64,000 nt of DNA from Actinomycetota bacterium (GTDB lineage Bacteria > Actinomycetota > Geothermincolia > Geothermincolales > RBG-13-55-18), in assembly GCA_014360645.1 (NCBI GenBank), contig JACIXD010000002.1:1-64000 (forward strand). Reading direction: 5' to 3'. Of this stretch, positions 42,231 to 50,852 are shown piece after piece. A program made the translations under genes and the position numbers. The notes beneath the pieces are model-generated. The model did no database searches and had not been told where the DNA came from. It worked only from the letters and a program-made list of their open reading frames with translations. Numbering within the stretch: position 1 is the stretch's first letter; every line of letters starts with the position of its first letter.

Positions 42231-42548
42231 TCAGGAGAACTTCTCCTTGAGGGCGCTGATCTGTTTGGGTCCGAGCCCCTTGACGCGTCGCGTGGTGCTG
42301 ATGCCTATCTCCTCCATTATCTTCGCCGCCCGCAGCTTTCCCACGCCAGGGACCGACTCGATCACCGACTTCACCGTCATCTTGCCGTATATCTCATCAT
42401 CCGCCTTCTTGAGGATGTCGCTCACCTTGAGCTTGCCTTCCTTGAGCCTTTTCTTGATCTCCGCGCGCTCCTTACGCACCCGCGCCGCTTTCTCTAGGGC
42501 CGCCTTGCGCTGTTCCGCCGTCAGTTCCGGGAGCTCCTGCTTGGCCAT
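42231..42548 (-). CDS. mihF: Actinobacterial integration host factor (MihF-type)
   Basis: 105 residues. A basic, helical N-terminus (AALEKAARVRKERAEIKKRLKEG) is followed by a helix-hairpin-helix-like segment VIESVPGVGKLRAAKIMEEIGIS, the DNA-binding core of MihF. It ends KGLGPKQISALKEKFS. The protein bends DNA and in mycobacteria is essential for nucleoid organisation. The gene family is characteristic of Actinomycetota and supports the host assignment. GAGGAGG precedes the ATG, and a separate promoter lies upstream. Confidence 0.95.
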   Translation of the reverse strand: MAKQELPELTAEQRKAALEKAARVRKERAEIKKRLKEGKLKVSDILKKADDEIYGKMTVKSVIESVPGVGKLRAAKIMEEIGISTTRRVKGLGPKQISALKEKFS

Positions 42549-42596
42549 CTTAACCCTCCTCGAGTCAAAGCCAACCCTACAGCAACGGTCCTACCT

Positions 42597-42625
42597 AGTA
42601 TAATCCCACCTCTACCGGCACACAA
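42597..42625 (-). promoter_or_regulatory. Candidate promoter for mihF
   Basis: On the minus strand TTGTGT (42625-42620) and TATACT (42602-42597, 5 of 6) are separated by 17 bases. It lies in the 94-base gap between pyrE and mihF and would give a leader of about 40 bases. Confidence 0.5.
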
Positions 42626-42642
42626 GCGGGCCGCCCCGCGAC

Positions 42643-43215
42643 TCAACCTCCGTATCTGCTCCCGGGCGTGACCAGTTCCACGCCCTCCCGGCAGAGAGGA
42701 CACTCCGCGGGGTCCCAGGCCTTCGCCTCCAGCTGCAGCAGCACCTTCTTGGGCACGCCGAAGTCCCTGTCACCGCCGCGCTCGATGAGGGCGGCCAGTC
42801 CCCGCACCTCGGCTCCCGCCCCCCGCACCAGCTCCATGACCTCGCCCACCGACCCCCCCGTGGTGATGACGTCCTCCACCACCAGGACCCCGGCTCCCGC
42901 CGGTATGGCCTGTCCGCGGCGCAGCGCCAGCTTCCCTTCCCTGCGCTCGGCGAAGAGCATGCGCCTGCCCAGGGAGAGGGCCACCATGTAGCCGATGATG
43001 ATGCCCCCCAGCGCCGGGCTGACCACCAGGTCTATGTCTTTCTTCTCGAATCCCTTGGCCAGTGCTCCGGCCAGGCTCTCCGCGAGGTGGGGATGCTGCA
43101 GCACCAGGGCGCACTGCACGTAGGTGTCGCTGTGCAGCCCCGAGGTGAGGAGAAAATGTCCCCTCTGCACCGCCCCCTCCCGCTCGAAGATCTCCATCAC
43201 CTCAGCCGGGTTCAT
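42643..43215 (-). CDS. pyrE: Orotate phosphoribosyltransferase
   Basis: 190 residues from ATG 43215, overlapping the pyrD stop by four bases (ATGA). The PRPP motif is VLVVEDVITTGGSVGEVM, and LTSGLHSDTYVQ matches the family N-terminus. A C-terminal extension has two cysteines (DPAECPLCREGVEL), a CxxC-like pair found in some OPRTases. It adds ribose-5-phosphate from PRPP to orotate to give OMP. Last gene of the pyr operon. Confidence 0.96.
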   Translation of the reverse strand: MNPAEVMEIFEREGAVQRGHFLLTSGLHSDTYVQCALVLQHPHLAESLAGALAKGFEKKDIDLVVSPALGGIIIGYMVALSLGRRMLFAERREGKLALRRGQAIPAGAGVLVVEDVITTGGSVGEVMELVRGAGAEVRGLAALIERGGDRDFGVPKKVLLQLEAKAWDPAECPLCREGVELVTPGSRYGG

Positions 43216-44207
43216 ATCATCTCCCCCTTTCCGTGCCTTTCGGTCCGTTCCTGGCTCCCCGCGCCCCCTCCGTCCGCCTGCTCTCCGAAGCCTCCGCGGT
43301 GCGCCACGCCCACCAGCCCGGCTACGCCGGCGATCCCCTTGCGCGAGAGGAAGTCCGCGATGCCCTCCGCGACGGCCAGAGGAGCCCAGGGGTCCACGAA
43401 GTTCAGGGTGCCGACCGCCACCGCGCTCGCCCCCGCCATGATCAGCTCCACGGCATCCTCCCAGCCCCAGATGCCCCCCATGCCGATGATGGGGATGTCG
43501 ACGCTCGCGAACGCCTCCCACACCGCGAGCACCGCCACGGGGTGTATGGCCGGTCCCGACAGCCCCCCCGTCGCGTTACCGAGTCCGGGCACCCCTTTCT
43601 CTATGTCTATGGCCATGGCCGGCAACGTGTTGACCAGGCTCAGGCCGTCCGCCCCCGCCCGCGCCACCGCGGCGCACATGCCCTTCATGTCCGCCGTGCG
43701 CGGGGAGAGCTTGACGAACAGCGGCAGATCGCAGCGCTCCTTCACCCTGCTCACCAGCCTGGCCGCGTCTTCGGCGCTCGCGGAGAAATGCATCCCCCCT
43801 TTCCTCACGTTGGGGCAGGAGATGTTCAGCTCCAGCGCCGCCGCCAGGCCCGCGGCGCACACCTCTCCCGCCACCTTTGCGTATTCCTCCTCGCTGAAAC
43901 CGGCCACGTTGACCCATACCGGGACTCCCATCCCCGCCAGCCAGGGCAGATCCCGTTCCAGGAAGACCTCGAGGCCGGGGTTCTCGAGCCCGATGGAGTT
44001 GAGCATGCCGCAGGGGGTCTCCCACAGGCGCGGCGGGGGGTTTCCGGCGCAGGGACGCAGGGTGACGGACTTGGTGATGATTCCGCCAAGGCCGCCGGGG
44101 TCCATCCATTCCGCGTACTCCCTGCCGTTTCCCCAGGTGCCGGAGCAGACCAGCACCGGGTTTCGCATGCGGATACCGGCTATCTCCGTGCCCAGCAGGG
44201 CCTCCAT
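43212..44207 (-). CDS. pyrD: Dihydroorotate dehydrogenase B, catalytic subunit
   Basis: 331 residues from ATG 44207. FMN-binding barrel of class 1B: NPVLVCSGTWGNG, the lysine in ITKSVTL, ELNISCPNV (with the catalytic cysteine in NISCPN), and GMGGIWGWEDAVELIMAGASAVAVGT. It oxidises dihydroorotate to orotate, passing electrons to PyrK and NAD. It starts one base after the pyrK stop and overlaps pyrE by 4 bases. The C-terminal 25 residues are Gly/Gln-rich and unusual. Confidence 0.96.
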   Translation of the reverse strand: MEALLGTEIAGIRMRNPVLVCSGTWGNGREYAEWMDPGGLGGIITKSVTLRPCAGNPPPRLWETPCGMLNSIGLENPGLEVFLERDLPWLAGMGVPVWVNVAGFSEEEYAKVAGEVCAAGLAAALELNISCPNVRKGGMHFSASAEDAARLVSRVKERCDLPLFVKLSPRTADMKGMCAAVARAGADGLSLVNTLPAMAIDIEKGVPGLGNATGGLSGPAIHPVAVLAVWEAFASVDIPIIGMGGIWGWEDAVELIMAGASAVAVGTLNFVDPWAPLAVAEGIADFLSRKGIAGVAGLVGVAHRGGFGEQADGGGAGSQERTERHGKGEMI

Positions 44208-44208
44208 C

Positions 44209-45030
44209 TCACCTCGCCCCATCGCCTTGCCCCGATCGCCGCGCGGGGGCGTCCTGGAACCTCTCCCAGTCCAGCTCGCCTGCGAAGAACACCGGGCCGT
44301 CCCTGCAGGCGGCAAGGTAGGAACCGCCGCCCCCCTCCGCCGGAACCGCGCATCCCCTGCAGGCCCCCACCCCGCAGGCCATGCGTTCCTCCACACTCAC
44401 CTGCGTGCGCTCCAGCTCCTCCTCGCCGAGGCCGCCCACCAGCCCGGAGAGCATCTCCCGCGGCCCGCAGGCGTACAGGGCCGCCCCGGGGCGTCCCCCG
44501 CTCTCACGGAGCAGCTCGAGGACCGTGCCCCGGTATCCCGCGCTCCCGTCCCGGGTGGCCAGGTCGAGTCGGCATTCCATCGCCAGGAGCTCCGGGAGGG
44601 TTCCGTAATCTCCGGCGCCCTCCACCCCCCAGTATAGCGAGAACCGAAGCTTCCGGCCGCGCATGACGCGGGCCAGGAAGCGCAGGGGCGCGATTCCCGC
44701 TCCCCCCGCCACCAGCAGGTGCTCCCTCGCGCCCTCGAGGACGGCAAATCCCCTTCCCAGCGGCCCCAGGAGGTCCAGGGTCTCGCCCGCCTCCCGTGCG
44801 CACAGCCACCTCGATCCCGCCCCCGCCGGGCGCACCAGGAGCGCCAGCTCGCCGCTACTCGACACGGTGAGGCTGAAGGGCCGCCTAAGGATGCGGCCGT
44901 CGCCTCCGCACAGCACGTGCAGGAACTGGCCGGGAACGGCCTCCAGGTCGCGCGGCAACTCCAGGACCAGCTCGGTGGCGCAGCCGAAGAGGTTCTTCTC
45001 CGCGATGGCGACCCGGTATCTCGCCGGCAA
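44209..45030 (-). CDS. pyrK: Dihydroorotate dehydrogenase electron-transfer subunit
   Basis: 273 residues from TTG 45030. FAD/NAD ferredoxin-reductase fold (RPFSLTVS for FAD, LVAGGAGIAPLRFLARVM for NAD). The [2Fe-2S] ligands are in CGVGACRGCAV and a later cysteine in AACRDGPVF. It links PyrD to NAD. It begins 3 bases after the CarB-like stop, indicating translational coupling. Confidence 0.96.
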   Translation of the reverse strand: MPARYRVAIAEKNLFGCATELVLELPRDLEAVPGQFLHVLCGGDGRILRRPFSLTVSSSGELALLVRPAGAGSRWLCAREAGETLDLLGPLGRGFAVLEGAREHLLVAGGAGIAPLRFLARVMRGRKLRFSLYWGVEGAGDYGTLPELLAMECRLDLATRDGSAGYRGTVLELLRESGGRPGAALYACGPREMLSGLVGGLGEEELERTQVSVEERMACGVGACRGCAVPAEGGGGSYLAACRDGPVFFAGELDWERFQDAPARRSGQGDGAR

Positions 45031-45033
45031 CCC

Positions 45034-47871
45034 TCAACGCCCCCCCGCTCTCCCGGCGGCGGGCAGATATTCCGAGAGCGCCCTGGCCTCCCGCGGCGTC
45101 GTGGCGGCCTCCCTCAGTCCCAACGCCAAGGCCATGGCCGCCTCCATGCTGGTGACGCAGGGAACGCCGTACCGCACCGAGGCCTCGCGGATGTAGAAAC
45201 CGTCGCAGTGGGGATGCCTGCCGCGCGGGATGTTCACCACCAGGCTCACCTCGCCGTTGCGTATGTGGTCGAGGATGTTGGGGCGCCCCTCGCGCAGCTT
45301 GCACACCGTCTCCACCTCCAAGCCCGCCGCGGAGAGGGTGTGCGCCGTTCCCCGCGTGGCCATGATGCGGTATCCCGCCTGCACCAGCTCCCTCGCCAGC
45401 AACACCGCCCGGCGCTTGTCGCGGTTGGCCACGCTGAGGAGTGCCGCGCCCCCGAGTCTTGGACGTATCCCCAGGCTCACCAGGGCCTTGCCCAGGGCGG
45501 TCCCGTAATCCGGCGCCGTGCCCATCACCGACCCCGGGGTGCGGCGCGGTGACGTCGGCAGGATGTCCGCGTCCGCGAGGTCTCCGCCGGGGGGCAGGGG
45601 AACGCGTACCGACACCCGCGCATGCGCCTCTTCGGCGACCGCGCCCTCCTCGCCGAGCAGAGCGCAGATCCCCAGGTACGCCAGCGGCACGCCGGAAGCC
45701 CTCTCCAGGAAGGAGAGGTCCTCCGAGGCCCCCGGCTCCGCCGACCATATCCTCATCCCCTCACCGTCGGCCGCCAGGCGAAGGGAGAGATTGCCCCTCC
45801 AGCCCAGCGCCTCCACGGCCCCGCGCGCCAGCCCCGCCGCCAGCAGCCTCTGCTGCGTGGTGAGGGATACGGGCGGAAAGACCGCCATGCCCTCGCCGGG
45901 CGACAACCCTGCGGCGCCGAGCTGTTCCCACACCAGGGCCGCCAGGCAACCCCGCAGGCCTCCCACCGCCTCCACCCTCACCTCCCGCGTCTCCTCGTCG
46001 AGGGAGCGCCAGAGGGTCCGCGCCCCCATCTCCGACGCCAGCCTCTCCGCTTCCCGGGGCGTGAAGGCTATGGCCGTGGTCCCCACCCTTCCCCCTGCGG
46101 CGCCCTGCACATGCAGGGGATAGGCAAGGCCCTCCGGGGGGCCGGCGCACCCTTCGCGGCCGGGATAGAAGTCCACCACGGGCAAGCCCGCCGACCGCAG
46201 CCTCTCCAGGACCTGCGCGGGGCGCTCCGCGTCCAGGAGCTCCTCCGCCCCCAGGACCTCCAAGCCCCTATGCCCCGCCTCGCGGGCGCAGGATGCCGCA
46301 CCGTCCCCGCCGTAGTGGGCCACCAGCCGTGTGCATCCCAGCTCGCGGGCGGCCGACGCCACCTCCTCCGGGTGCAGCTCCCCTATGAAGACCGCGTCCA
46401 TCACCACTGCCGCCAGCATGGCCAAGCCGGGGTCGGGGGTGTACAGGGCCGTCCCCAGCCCCATCTCCCGCGCCGCAAAGGCCGCCCGCAAGCACCCCGC
46501 CTGCCGGTCGTGCCCCCCGCCCTCTCCCGTTCCGCCGTCGAGGAACATGAGCCCCCCCGCGGACAGGCCGCCGGCGGGGCGGGTCACGCACCTCCATGTG
46601 GGGGAGGGGTTTCCCGCCTCCTTCTCCTTGTCGGACATCTCCCGCAGGCGCTGCCATCCCTCCGGATCCGGGGTCCTGCAGCCGCCCCCCTTCCGCTCCA
46701 TGTATTCGCGGGCCAGGGAGGCCGCGCGGGCCGGGCTGTCCGCCACCCAGGCCCTCCACGAATCGGAGCGGCGCGCCGTCCACAGGGGCCCCTCGCCGCC
46801 GTCCTCCCCCGCCTCTCCGCGTACCGGCACGGCGACCAGGAAGCCCCGCGGGTCCTCGCGCCCCACCCTTCCCGCCGCCTCCTCCACGCCCGCGCCCATG
46901 GCCAGGAGCGCCTGCGCCCGCACCAGATCCGCTCCCAGGAGGGTCTCCATCAGAGCCAGGGAGCTCCCGCCCGCGGGGTTGATGTCCAGGACGTATATCT
47001 CCTCCCAGGCCGGGGAGGCCGCCAGCTTCACCTCGCTGACCCCCGTCAGGCCCGCGACCTCCGCGGCGCGGAGGGCCATCTCCCCCAGAGCGTAGGCGGC
47101 CTCGCGTCCCGCGCTGCGCGGCGGCGCCACCAGCACCGCGTCCCCCTCGTGCATGGTCAGGGGCGAGAGCTGTTCCAGCATGCCCGCCACGCGCGCCTCT
47201 CCGCCCTCATCCCGCATCACCAGCGCCACGAACTTGGTCCACCCCTCCAGGGCCTCCTCCACCAGGAGCTCCCCTGTGAGGCTCTCCCGCAAGGCCTTCT
47301 CTACCAGTTCCTGGTAATCCTCCCGGTTATAGGCCAGCCCCGTCCCCCTGCCTCCCTCGGAGAAGTACGCCCTGGCCACCAGCGGGAATCCCAGGCGGTC
47401 CGCGGCCGCCTGCGCCTCCCCCATGCCGCGCACCGCCTGGCCGCGGGGATTGGCGATGCCGCCCGATTCCAGCGCCTCGCGGAGCAGGGAACGGTCCCCG
47501 CACGTCCACCAGGCGCGGTCGTCCCAGCCGGGGGTGGTCACGCCCAGGCGGTGGTGAACCCCCTCCGCGCTGAGGCGCGACGCCAGCGCCCCCGCCCTCC
47601 TTCCCCCCGCCCCGTACCAGATGGAGCTCACCCCCCGGCTCTCCGCGATGGCCTCGACCACCTCCGGCAGGGGGGGCTCCACGTAGAGGTCGTCGCCGGC
47701 CGCCCCCAGGTCCATGAGCGTGGAGGGGTCGTCCTCCAGCACCAGCACGCGGTGCCCGGCGCGGCGCAGCAGCGCGCAGAGACGCGCCGCCTGCCACTTC
47801 AGCCAGGTCCCCTGCGCGGGCATAACCGGCCCGGGCCCCACCACCAGGGCAACGGATCCATTCCGCTCCAT
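45034..47871 (-). CDS. Carbamoyl-phosphate synthase large-subunit homologue with a degenerate second active site
   Basis: 945 residues in one uninterrupted frame, versus about 1070 for CarB. It has the full domain plan. The first half keeps the glycine loop EGGRG (172-176), MHEGD (240-244) and DINP (296-299), where CarB has E-x-N-P-R, so Arg is Ala here. In the second half the metal site corresponding to EVNPR reads SAEPG (710-714), and the LGG loop and HSGDS motif are lost. The C-terminal MGS domain (about 805-920: SVANRDKRRAVLLAREL, LREGRPNILDHIRNG, NIPRGR) is well conserved. No carA is present in the operon. It starts 60 bases after pyrC and is coupled to pyrK. It is probably a pseudoenzyme or regulator; catalysis is doubtful. 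Confidence 0.75.
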   Translation of the reverse strand: MERNGSVALVVGPGPVMPAQGTWLKWQAARLCALLRRAGHRVLVLEDDPSTLMDLGAAGDDLYVEPPLPEVVEAIAESRGVSSIWYGAGGRRAGALASRLSAEGVHHRLGVTTPGWDDRAWWTCGDRSLLREALESGGIANPRGQAVRGMGEAQAAADRLGFPLVARAYFSEGGRGTGLAYNREDYQELVEKALRESLTGELLVEEALEGWTKFVALVMRDEGGEARVAGMLEQLSPLTMHEGDAVLVAPPRSAGREAAYALGEMALRAAEVAGLTGVSEVKLAASPAWEEIYVLDINPAGGSSLALMETLLGADLVRAQALLAMGAGVEEAAGRVGREDPRGFLVAVPVRGEAGEDGGEGPLWTARRSDSWRAWVADSPARAASLAREYMERKGGGCRTPDPEGWQRLREMSDKEKEAGNPSPTWRCVTRPAGGLSAGGLMFLDGGTGEGGGHDRQAGCLRAAFAAREMGLGTALYTPDPGLAMLAAVVMDAVFIGELHPEEVASAARELGCTRLVAHYGGDGAASCAREAGHRGLEVLGAEELLDAERPAQVLERLRSAGLPVVDFYPGREGCAGPPEGLAYPLHVQGAAGGRVGTTAIAFTPREAERLASEMGARTLWRSLDEETREVRVEAVGGLRGCLAALVWEQLGAAGLSPGEGMAVFPPVSLTTQQRLLAAGLARGAVEALGWRGNLSLRLAADGEGMRIWSAEPGASEDLSFLERASGVPLAYLGICALLGEEGAVAEEAHARVSVRVPLPPGGDLADADILPTSPRRTPGSVMGTAPDYGTALGKALVSLGIRPRLGGAALLSVANRDKRRAVLLARELVQAGYRIMATRGTAHTLSAAGLEVETVCKLREGRPNILDHIRNGEVSLVVNIPRGRHPHCDGFYIREASVRYGVPCVTSMEAAMALALGLREAATTPREARALSEYLPAAGRAGGR

Positions 47872-47931: not shown

Positions 47932-49248
47932 TCATCCTCGTCGCCCTCCGCCCCCGCCCCCGTGAACCACCCTGCCGCCCTTGATAGTGCAGGCCACACG
48001 GCCCTTCACCGCCCTGCCGTGGAAGGGACAGTTCCTTCCCTTGGACGCGAAGCGCGTCGCGTCCAGCGTCCATTCCTCCTCCAGGTCCAGGAGGACGAGG
48101 TCGGCCCTGGCCCCGACCACGATACCGCCTCCGTAATCCGGCGGCTCCAGGCCCAGCACCGCCGCGGGCCCGCGGGTGAGCGCCTCCAGCAGTCGCATGA
48201 GCGTGAGCTCCCCGCCCTCCACGAGCTCGCGGTAGAGCACCGGGAACGCGCTCTCCATGCCCACCACCCCGAAGGGGGCGTAGTCGAACTCCTTTTCCTT
48301 GTCCTCGCGCCTGTGGGGCGCGTGGTCGGTGGCCACGGCGTCTATGGTGCCGTCGCGCAAGGCCTCGCGCAGCGCCGCCACGTCGGCGGGGGTACGCAGG
48401 GGAGGGCTCATCTTGTACGAGGTGTCGTAATCCCCGATGTCCCTCTCGCTCAGTACCAGGTGATGCGGCGTCACCTCGGCCGTCACTCTGACCCCTCGCT
48501 CCTTGGCCTCCCTGACCATGGCCGCGGAGCGCGCGGTGCTGATATGGGCGAGGTGCAGCCGGCCCCCCGTCTCCTCCGCGAGGAGGATATCCCGCGCCAC
48601 CATCACCTCCTCCGCCAGCGAGGGGATGCCGCGCAGGCCAAGGGCCACCGACGCCGCGCCTTCGTTGACCTGCCCACCGCGCGAGAGCCGGGCGTCCTCG
48701 GGGTGGGAGATGATCAGGCCTCCGAAGGCGGAAGCGTACTGCAGCGCCAGGCGCATGATGCCCGCGTCCTCCACCCCCGCCCCGTCGTCGGAAAAAGCCC
48801 TCACGCGGGCCTCGCAGGCGTGCATGAGGCCCAGGTCCGCGAGGTCCCGACCCTCCCTGCCCCTGGTGATGCACCCCACCACGTAGAGGTCCGCGAGCCC
48901 CAGGGCCCGGGCCCTGGCCGCCAGGCCGGAAACCACCGCGGGGTGGTCCAGGGGCGGTCGGGTGTTGGGCATGCAGCACACCGCGGCGTATCCGCCCCTC
49001 AAGGCCGCCTCAAGGCCCGTCTCCAGGGTCTCGGCGTCCTCGTCCCCGGGTTCCCTGAGGTGGGCGTGCAGCTCGAGGAAGGCGGGAGCGAGCACCAACC
49101 CGGACGCCTCCAACACCTCACGCCCCTCGCGCCCGATGCCCCTGCCCACCTCCGCGATGCGCCCCCTGGACACCAGCACATCGGCGTGCTCGTCCGTGCC
49201 CTGGAAGGGGTCCACGACCCTGGCGCCGGCTATGAGCAGCTCAGGCAA
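47932..49248 (-). CDS. pyrC: Dihydroorotase
   Basis: 438 residues from TTG 49248, overlapping pyrB by 8 bases. Amidohydrolase motifs: ELHAHLREPG (metal histidines, with Glu for the usual Asp), MPNTRPP, EVTPHHL (histidines) and ATDHAPHRREDKE with the catalytic aspartate. It closes carbamoyl-aspartate to dihydroorotate. The tail is Gly-rich (GGGGGGRR). It belongs to the class I type with a binuclear zinc centre. Confidence 0.96.
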   Translation of the reverse strand: MPELLIAGARVVDPFQGTDEHADVLVSRGRIAEVGRGIGREGREVLEASGLVLAPAFLELHAHLREPGDEDAETLETGLEAALRGGYAAVCCMPNTRPPLDHPAVVSGLAARARALGLADLYVVGCITRGREGRDLADLGLMHACEARVRAFSDDGAGVEDAGIMRLALQYASAFGGLIISHPEDARLSRGGQVNEGAASVALGLRGIPSLAEEVMVARDILLAEETGGRLHLAHISTARSAAMVREAKERGVRVTAEVTPHHLVLSERDIGDYDTSYKMSPPLRTPADVAALREALRDGTIDAVATDHAPHRREDKEKEFDYAPFGVVGMESAFPVLYRELVEGGELTLMRLLEALTRGPAAVLGLEPPDYGGGIVVGARADLVLLDLEEEWTLDATRFASKGRNCPFHGRAVKGRVACTIKGGRVVHGGGGGGRRG

Positions 49249-50176
49249 CTTCGCTCCCTCCTTCCGCGCCCCCCAGGAGGGTGAACAGCGCCGCCATGCG
49301 CACCGCCACCCCCGCCGTCACCTGCGCGGTCACCGCGGCGTAGGGCGCGTCCGCCACCTCCCCCGCGATCTCCACCCCCCGGTTCATGGGTCCCGGGTGC
49401 ATCACCAACGCCCCCGGCCGCGCCCGACCCATGCGCTCCGCGTTCAACTGGTAGAACCTGGTATACTCTTCCAGGGACGGCACCCTCCCTTCCTGCTGGC
49501 GTTCCCTCTGCATGCGCAGCATGTAGATGACGTCGCAGCGGGGCAGCGCCGCCTCGAAGTCGTGGACGTACTCCACCCCCTCCACGGGAGCGGGCGGCAG
49601 CAGGGTCGGGGGCCCCACCGCCAGCACCTCCATGCCCACGGCCCGGCAGGCCTTCATCCCGGAGCGCGCCACGCGCGAGTGCAGCACGTCCCCCACGAAG
49701 GCGACGGTCCGTCCTTCCAGGTCACCCAGCCTCTCCCGCATGGTGAAGAGGTCCAGTAATGCCTGGGTGGGATGGGCATGCATACCGTCCCCCGCGTTGA
49801 GGATGGTGGCCTCCGTCCAGCGTCGAAGCAGCCAGGGCGCTCCCGCCACCGGATGCCTCACCACCACCGCGTCCACCCCCATGGCCTCCAGGGTGAGGGC
49901 GGTGTCCTTGAGGCTTTCCCCCTTCTCCACGCTGGAGGCGGAGGCGGTGAAGTTGAGCACGTCGGCGCTGAGGCGTTTGGCGGCGAGCTCGAAGGAGAGC
50001 CGCGTGCGCGTGGAGGGCTCGTAGAAGAGATTGGCCACCGTCTTGCCGCGCAGGGACGGGACCTTCTTGATGGGGCGCCGCAGCACCTCGGCGAAAGAGC
50101 GCGCCATGTCCAGCATCCGCTCTATGCCGTCGCGGTCGAGGTCATCGATGTCCAGCAGGTGGCGTCGCTCCGCCAT
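49241..50176 (-). CDS. pyrB: Aspartate carbamoyltransferase catalytic chain
   Basis: 311 residues. Carbamoyl phosphate is bound by YEPSTRTRLSFELAAKRL and HPTQALLDLFTMRE; the conserved HPGPMNRGVEI closes the aspartate site. It commits carbamoyl phosphate to pyrimidine synthesis. AAGGGG precedes the ATG, 67 bases after the pyrR stop. No pyrI is present. Confidence 0.97.
   Translation of the reverse strand: MAERRHLLDIDDLDRDGIERMLDMARSFAEVLRRPIKKVPSLRGKTVANLFYEPSTRTRLSFELAAKRLSADVLNFTASASSVEKGESLKDTALTLEAMGVDAVVVRHPVAGAPWLLRRWTEATILNAGDGMHAHPTQALLDLFTMRERLGDLEGRTVAFVGDVLHSRVARSGMKACRAVGMEVLAVGPPTLLPPAPVEGVEYVHDFEAALPRCDVIYMLRMQRERQQEGRVPSLEEYTRFYQLNAERMGRARPGALVMHPGPMNRGVEIAGEVADAPYAAVTAQVTAGVAVRMAALFTLLGGAEGGSEVA

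Positions 50177-50243: not shown

Positions 50244-50852
<609 letters not shown>

Follow-up and report, generated by a model that had tools for sequence, protein, structure and literature searches.

The locus described here raises the question of what a homologue of CarB, the large subunit of carbamoyl phosphate synthetase (CPS), does in a pyrimidine operon in which it has no carA beside it. The open reading frame at 45034-47871 of the window (the whole stretch of 64,000 nucleotides that was analysed) is such a homologue and lies between pyrC and pyrK. A first-pass annotation of the same DNA had described a CarB-like protein with a dismantled second active site and a conserved effector domain, and had proposed a retained pseudoenzyme that may sense UMP. 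We refer to this protein as psiCarB (pseudo-CarB).

The psiCarB gene in the pyr operon

Inspection of the window's pyr operon, whose order is pyrR-pyrB-pyrC-psiCarB-pyrK-pyrD-pyrE, agreed with what had been read from the gene at first sight: the frame on the minus strand is intact over 945 codons (945 amino acids), its stop is 3 bases away from the start of pyrK, and no carA adjoins it. On the 3' side of pyrE there are genes for a small mIHF-like protein, which we take to be the actinobacterial-type integration host factor, and for gmk and coaBC. The features of the locus are the following.

50244..50843, minus strand: pyrR
49241..50176, minus strand: pyrB, aspartate transcarbamoylase
47932..49248, minus strand: pyrC, dihydroorotase, upstream neighbour (synteny and homology in relatives)
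45034..47871, minus strand: psiCarB, 945 aa, intact frame, with same-slot orthologues in the order; catalytic ligands lost
46837..47871, minus strand: psiCarB N-terminal carboxyphosphate-type half, aa 1-345; nucleotide contacts R127, R167 and H241 retained; K282, D296 and A300 for Gln285, Glu299 and Arg303 of E. coli CarB
46561..46836, minus strand: psiCarB short variable linker replacing the oligomerisation domain (E. coli 401-552), as seen from alignment, gaps and dN/dS
45547..46560, minus strand: psiCarB degenerate carbamoyl-phosphate-type half; S657, R698, S710, E712 and G714 for His788, Gln829, Glu841, Asn843 and Arg845
45097..45471, minus strand: psiCarB MGS (allosteric effector) domain, aa 801-925, PF02142; effector-site residues invariant in 13 complete copies
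44209..45030, minus strand: pyrK, downstream neighbour, 3 bases past the psiCarB stop
43212..44222, minus strand: pyrD (start approximate)
42643..43221, minus strand: pyrE (start approximate)

In psiCarB, Pfam searches recognised the CPSase preATP-grasp and MGS domains and a single CPSase ATP-binding domain. The NCBI model of the CPSase large subunit (TIGR01369) gave 271 bits, far below its cut-off of 1027, so that the protein is not assigned to this family. Since psiCarBs do match carbamoyl phosphate synthase models, they would easily be named carB and represent an annotation trap.

Other peculiarities of the operon were observed. In the window's genus (G000-G002), pyrF is gone from between pyrD and pyrE (window 42548-43212), while it is there in the other carriers of psiCarB; an OMP decarboxylase match was found at G000:C4:278875-279525. 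Genomes G003 and G016 (L050 2900-5100 and L056 2700-5200, respectively) have an extra frame of 215-230 codons, HEAT-repeat-like in appearance, between pyrD and the mIHF-like gene. A 12-pair terminator-like hairpin at window 50811-50839, on the minus strand, overlaps the listed pyrR start; it is possibly an attenuator, or a hint that the true pyrR start sits further in.

Catalytic sites, effector domain and selection

For ligand mapping, 13 complete psiCarB orthologues were aligned onto E. coli CarB, with ligand numbers that we take to be those of the E. coli CarB structures. Where CarB has EVNPR in the second ATP-grasp site, psiCarB has SAEPG (aa 710-714), and the counterpart in the first site is DINPA (aa 296-300); the alignment is gapless and unambiguous, and confirms both motifs as they had first been read. 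In the carbamoyl-phosphate half of the window protein none of Arg715, His754, His788, Gln829, Glu841, Asn843 and Arg845 is kept, so that this ligand set of CarB is absent; Glu761 and Gly786 are the sole survivors among the ligands tested. A glutamate at position 841 was found, among the 13 copies, only in family f3 (G016 and G017). The possibility that the second-site ligands are present at shifted positions was rejected, because around 829-848 all copies align without gaps and between conserved flanks, which indicates that the ligands are not merely displaced.

The damage extends beyond the second site, which the first-pass annotation had described as dismantled. In the carboxyphosphate site of the window protein Gln285 is replaced by Lys, Glu299 by Asp, Arg303 by Ala and Glu215 by Lys. 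The metal-ligand positions Gln285/Glu299/Asn301/Arg303 thus read Lys/Asp/Asn/Ala, and they vary among orthologues, so that the ligand set of a CarB is not found here either. Position 285 is Lys, or Glu in the f3 copies, Glu299 is replaced by Asp in f1, Asn301 varies and Arg303 is lost in 10 of the 13 copies; by family, the first three positions are Lys/Asp/(Asn or Asp) in f1 and Glu/Glu/(Phe or His) in f3. In the same half, Arg129, Arg169 and His243 are invariant in the 13 copies. In addition, the oligomerisation domain (E. coli 401-552), which a CarB possesses, is for the most part deleted. That all 13 complete copies have lost metal and catalytic ligands in the two sites strongly supports the view, drawn from sequence comparison, that psiCarB is catalytically dead.

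An AlphaFold2 model of psiCarB (mean pLDDT 77, pTM 0.79) matched E. coli CarB along its length in Foldseek, with a TM score of 0.88-0.92. The input alignment of the model consisted mostly of CarBs, and therefore this match speaks for compatibility with the CarB fold and is not an independent proof of it.

The MGS domain, described as conserved from the start, was recognised by Pfam PF02142 at 9e-21. Ligands of such domains vary, being UMP, IMP and ornithine in E. coli and NAG in human CPS1. Residues S813, K819, T839, T842, K858 and N880 of psiCarB correspond to Ser948, Lys954, Thr974, Thr977, Lys993 and Asn1015 of the UMP/IMP site of E. coli CarB, and all six are invariant in 13/13 complete copies, so that the UMP-site residues of an MGS domain are present throughout; Thr1042 is also among the retained sites. 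Importance for the binding of UMP and inhibition by it is reported for Thr977 and Lys993, for the response to UMP and IMP in the case of Ser948, and for ornithine in that of Thr1042 (PMC6245113). The idea that the extra arginines of the pocket point to a new ligand was rejected, since Arg952 and Arg955 are frequent among working CarBs; the only unusual pocket residues with respect to these are Arg1018 and Tyr1028. The sensing of UMP that had been proposed for psiCarB is supported indirectly, by the invariance of all the published UMP-site residues that were checked in the 13 complete copies, and the MGS domain is a plausible UMP sensor. Because MGS domains bind several ligands, UMP is not thereby proven.

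The distribution of constraint along the protein is inverted with respect to working CarB, being strongest on the MGS effector domain. When the same species pairs within f1 were compared, the mean identity of N half, C half and MGS domain was 93, 90 and 84% in working CarB and 50, 42 and 71% in psiCarB. Sites were called canonical-invariant if 95% or more of 56 working CarBs agree on them. Of these, 11/14 in the MGS domain are retained by every psiCarB, as compared to 21/165 in the N half and 7/118 in the C half (Fisher p 3e-7 and 3e-9, respectively, which are guides, given that sites and sequences are related); in the oligomerisation domain 0/20 are kept, with 50% gap at such sites. The dN/dS values, whose pattern the first-pass annotation had proposed to test and which are rough (Nei-Gojobori, six pairs, dS 0.6-1.8), were 0.02-0.20 in the MGS domain, 0.14-0.23 in the N half, 0.15-0.38 in the C half and highest, 0.30-0.72, in the linker. 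psiCarB is under purifying selection, strongest in the MGS domain, and not in decay. Ligand loss, dN/dS and the contrasts in identity and invariant sites strongly support the original idea that psiCarB is a pseudoenzyme which was retained and whose effector domain is preserved. In fact, psiCarB combines homology to a pathway enzyme, loss of catalytic residues and retention under selection, as does a regulatory or assembly pseudoenzyme of the pseudo-dihydroorotase (pDHO) type.

Distribution of psiCarB and the working carA-carB

psiCarB is present in 15 of the 18 sampled genomes of the order, whose members are uncultured and deep-branching actinobacteria: in 13 as a complete copy (open frames of 945-1029 codons, about 38-62% identical within the family) and in two, G007 and G009, truncated where the contig stops. 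In the incomplete genomes G004 and G008 the pyr slot was unreadable. The arrangement pyrC-psiCarB-pyrK is identical in all carriers whose contigs span it. SURF_21 (contig QZKE01000065.1), a MAG placed in clade RBG-13-55-18 (PMC7325909), is among the carriers (G012), and the window belongs to the same family. The gene was not found in the other 13 genomes of the class, nor in about 378 other Actinomycetota at a threshold of 1e-95, at which very divergent copies could be missed. Six matches outside the order at E <1e-95 were rejected as psiCarB: they are working CarBs with carA adjoining, and of the catalytic residues tested they lack only His754, a position that is variable among working CarBs as well. 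A single-protein search of wider genome contigs gave no matches; an alignment-based search gave a single orthologue (L103), besides 79 loci whose matches were weak, like those of working CarBs.

Canonical carA-carB occupies the place between pyrC and pyrK in the five class-mates (families f4 and f5) that were read completely, which bears out the claim that psiCarB stands where these genes would be expected. The earliest branch of the order in an eight-gene tree, G015 (family f2), has neither carAB nor psiCarB in its pyr operon (L083 7559-9692), where pyrC overlaps pyrK. psiCarB characterises the clade f1+f3 (support 85), in keeping with a single origin. In tree tests, neither the grouping of psiCarB with the order's CarB nor that with the CarB of class-mates was rejected; it is the position of the gene that suggests descent from the native operon CarB.

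A search of the rest of the genome, as had been advised, retrieved the true CarAB that was suspected to exist: a complete carA-carB pair lies on another contig of the psiCarB genome (G000:C20:8211-12688, L042), and its CarB scores 1529 bits against the TIGR01369 cut-off of 1027. Loss of CPS from this genome is therefore rejected, and so is the earlier alternative that the lineage had rewired its only enzyme. The pair is not contamination, since carA-carB is conserved across the order: a canonical CarB match is present in every carrier, and wherever the region was read, carA and carB are together and outside the pyr operon. In a full-length tree the order's working CarBs fall among those of Myxococcota, Elusimicrobiota and Desulfobacterales, apart from actinobacterial CarBs. 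Forcing them together with the latter was rejected (AU p 0.0025, on a reduced set with LG+G4, the group having been named after seeing the tree), while a test of the same question on short columns was not significant (p 0.29). Tree position and AU rejection suggest that the working pair was probably imported horizontally from outside Actinomycetota. PyrI was searched for and is absent from the order, and OTCase matches occur in 18/18 of its genomes; for this reason, the single canonical CarAB found, outside the pyr operon, probably serves both arginine and pyrimidine synthesis. A single shared CarAB is not peculiar to carriers, as class-mates seemingly also have one, inside the pyr operon.

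Possible role of psiCarB and comparison with known systems

We lean, with some reserve, towards psiCarB being a dead CPS large subunit that the pyrimidine pathway has retained as an effector-binding (probably UMP-binding) regulator or scaffold. Its being locked in the pyr operon, with the UMP pocket as its most conserved part, is best read as the mark of a sensor acting in trans. The MGS domain would still bind a phosphorylated effector, most likely UMP, and the two degenerate ATP-grasp halves would form a body able to change shape or to dock on another protein. The co-expressed aspartate transcarbamoylase (ATCase), with or without dihydroorotase, would be the most probable partner, because ATCase is the first pathway-specific step and is encoded in the same operon; psiCarB would then put end-product feedback on this step, if control runs in that direction. 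Carbamoyl phosphate would be supplied by the separate carA-carB, which would also have to feed arginine synthesis. Several observations count against such a reading: MGS domains have various ligands, the N half is clearly constrained and keeps Arg129, Arg169 and His243, so that nucleotide binding or some other chemistry may persist there, the early-branching f2 genome does without psiCarB, and class-mates seemingly also make do with a single CarAB.

psiCarB might instead be a structural partner that assembles or stabilises PyrB or a PyrB-PyrC complex and senses no effector. Its place beside pyrB and pyrC, and by analogy the pDHO of Pseudomonas, which is inactive yet required for ATCase (PMC7053772), would agree with this, but the strongest constraint, that on the effector pocket, would be left unexplained, and we consider such a role unlikely. 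Control of the true CarAB, with psiCarB joining CarA or CarB and bringing UMP regulation to the imported enzyme, would fit both its homology to CarB and the location of the working pair outside the operon. However, the working CarB retains its own MGS residues, and little is left in psiCarB of the oligomerisation domain, with which CarA makes contact in E. coli (PMC6245113); this loss argues against a role through CarA, and we consider this function rather improbable.

Similarly low is the probability that we give to a new enzyme, in which the N-terminal ATP-grasp half, under MGS control, hydrolyses ATP or phosphorylates another substrate: the retained Arg129, Arg169 and His243 and an N-half dN/dS of 0.14-0.23 would suit it, whereas the difference in metal ligands between f1 and f3 leaves no common catalytic constellation. 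The high divergence of the family could finally be taken as that of a decaying pseudogene kept merely by its operon location. This is very improbable and already contradicted by the long open frames of the 13 complete copies, by dN/dS values well below 1 and by site-specific conservation.

The reading of psiCarB as an effector-binding regulator can be taken one tentative step further, to an undescribed class of trans-acting allosteric subunits; we regard this extension as possible and rather doubtful. The imported carA-carB would have taken over catalysis, and the native pyr-operon CarB, having lost both active sites and its CarA, would have become a UMP receptor regulating aspartate transcarbamoylase, an independently evolved counterpart of PyrI. 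If the regulatory reading were true, psiCarB would be a natural split of the catalysis and the allosteric control of one enzyme into two genes, and would offer an explanation, open to experiment, of how genomes that lack PyrI match the demand for pyrimidines with carbamoyl phosphate made by an enzyme encoded outside the operon. No earlier description of psiCarB was found in the open-access literature, in which it would be the first CarB pseudoenzyme.

Among known systems, psiCarB shares with CarB/PyrAB (TIGR01369; PDB 1JDB, 1BXR and 1CE8) the domain order, fold, MGS effector residues and operon slot. It differs in that both catalytic sites are dismantled, the oligomerisation domain is largely missing, no CarA goes with it, and the constraint is inverted. 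The MGS-like domains of human CPS1 and PurH belong to the same fold family, while that of psiCarB is fused to two dead ATP-grasp halves. PyrI, the regulatory chain of enterobacterial and archaeal ATCase and absent from the order, is an unrelated protein, similar only in the role proposed here of a nucleotide-sensing regulatory subunit for PyrB. Like psiCarB, the Pseudomonas pDHO (PyrC') is homologous to an enzyme of the pyrimidine pathway, is inactive and is nevertheless retained there (PMC7053772); unlike pDHO, which derives from dihydroorotase, psiCarB derives from CPS and has an effector domain.
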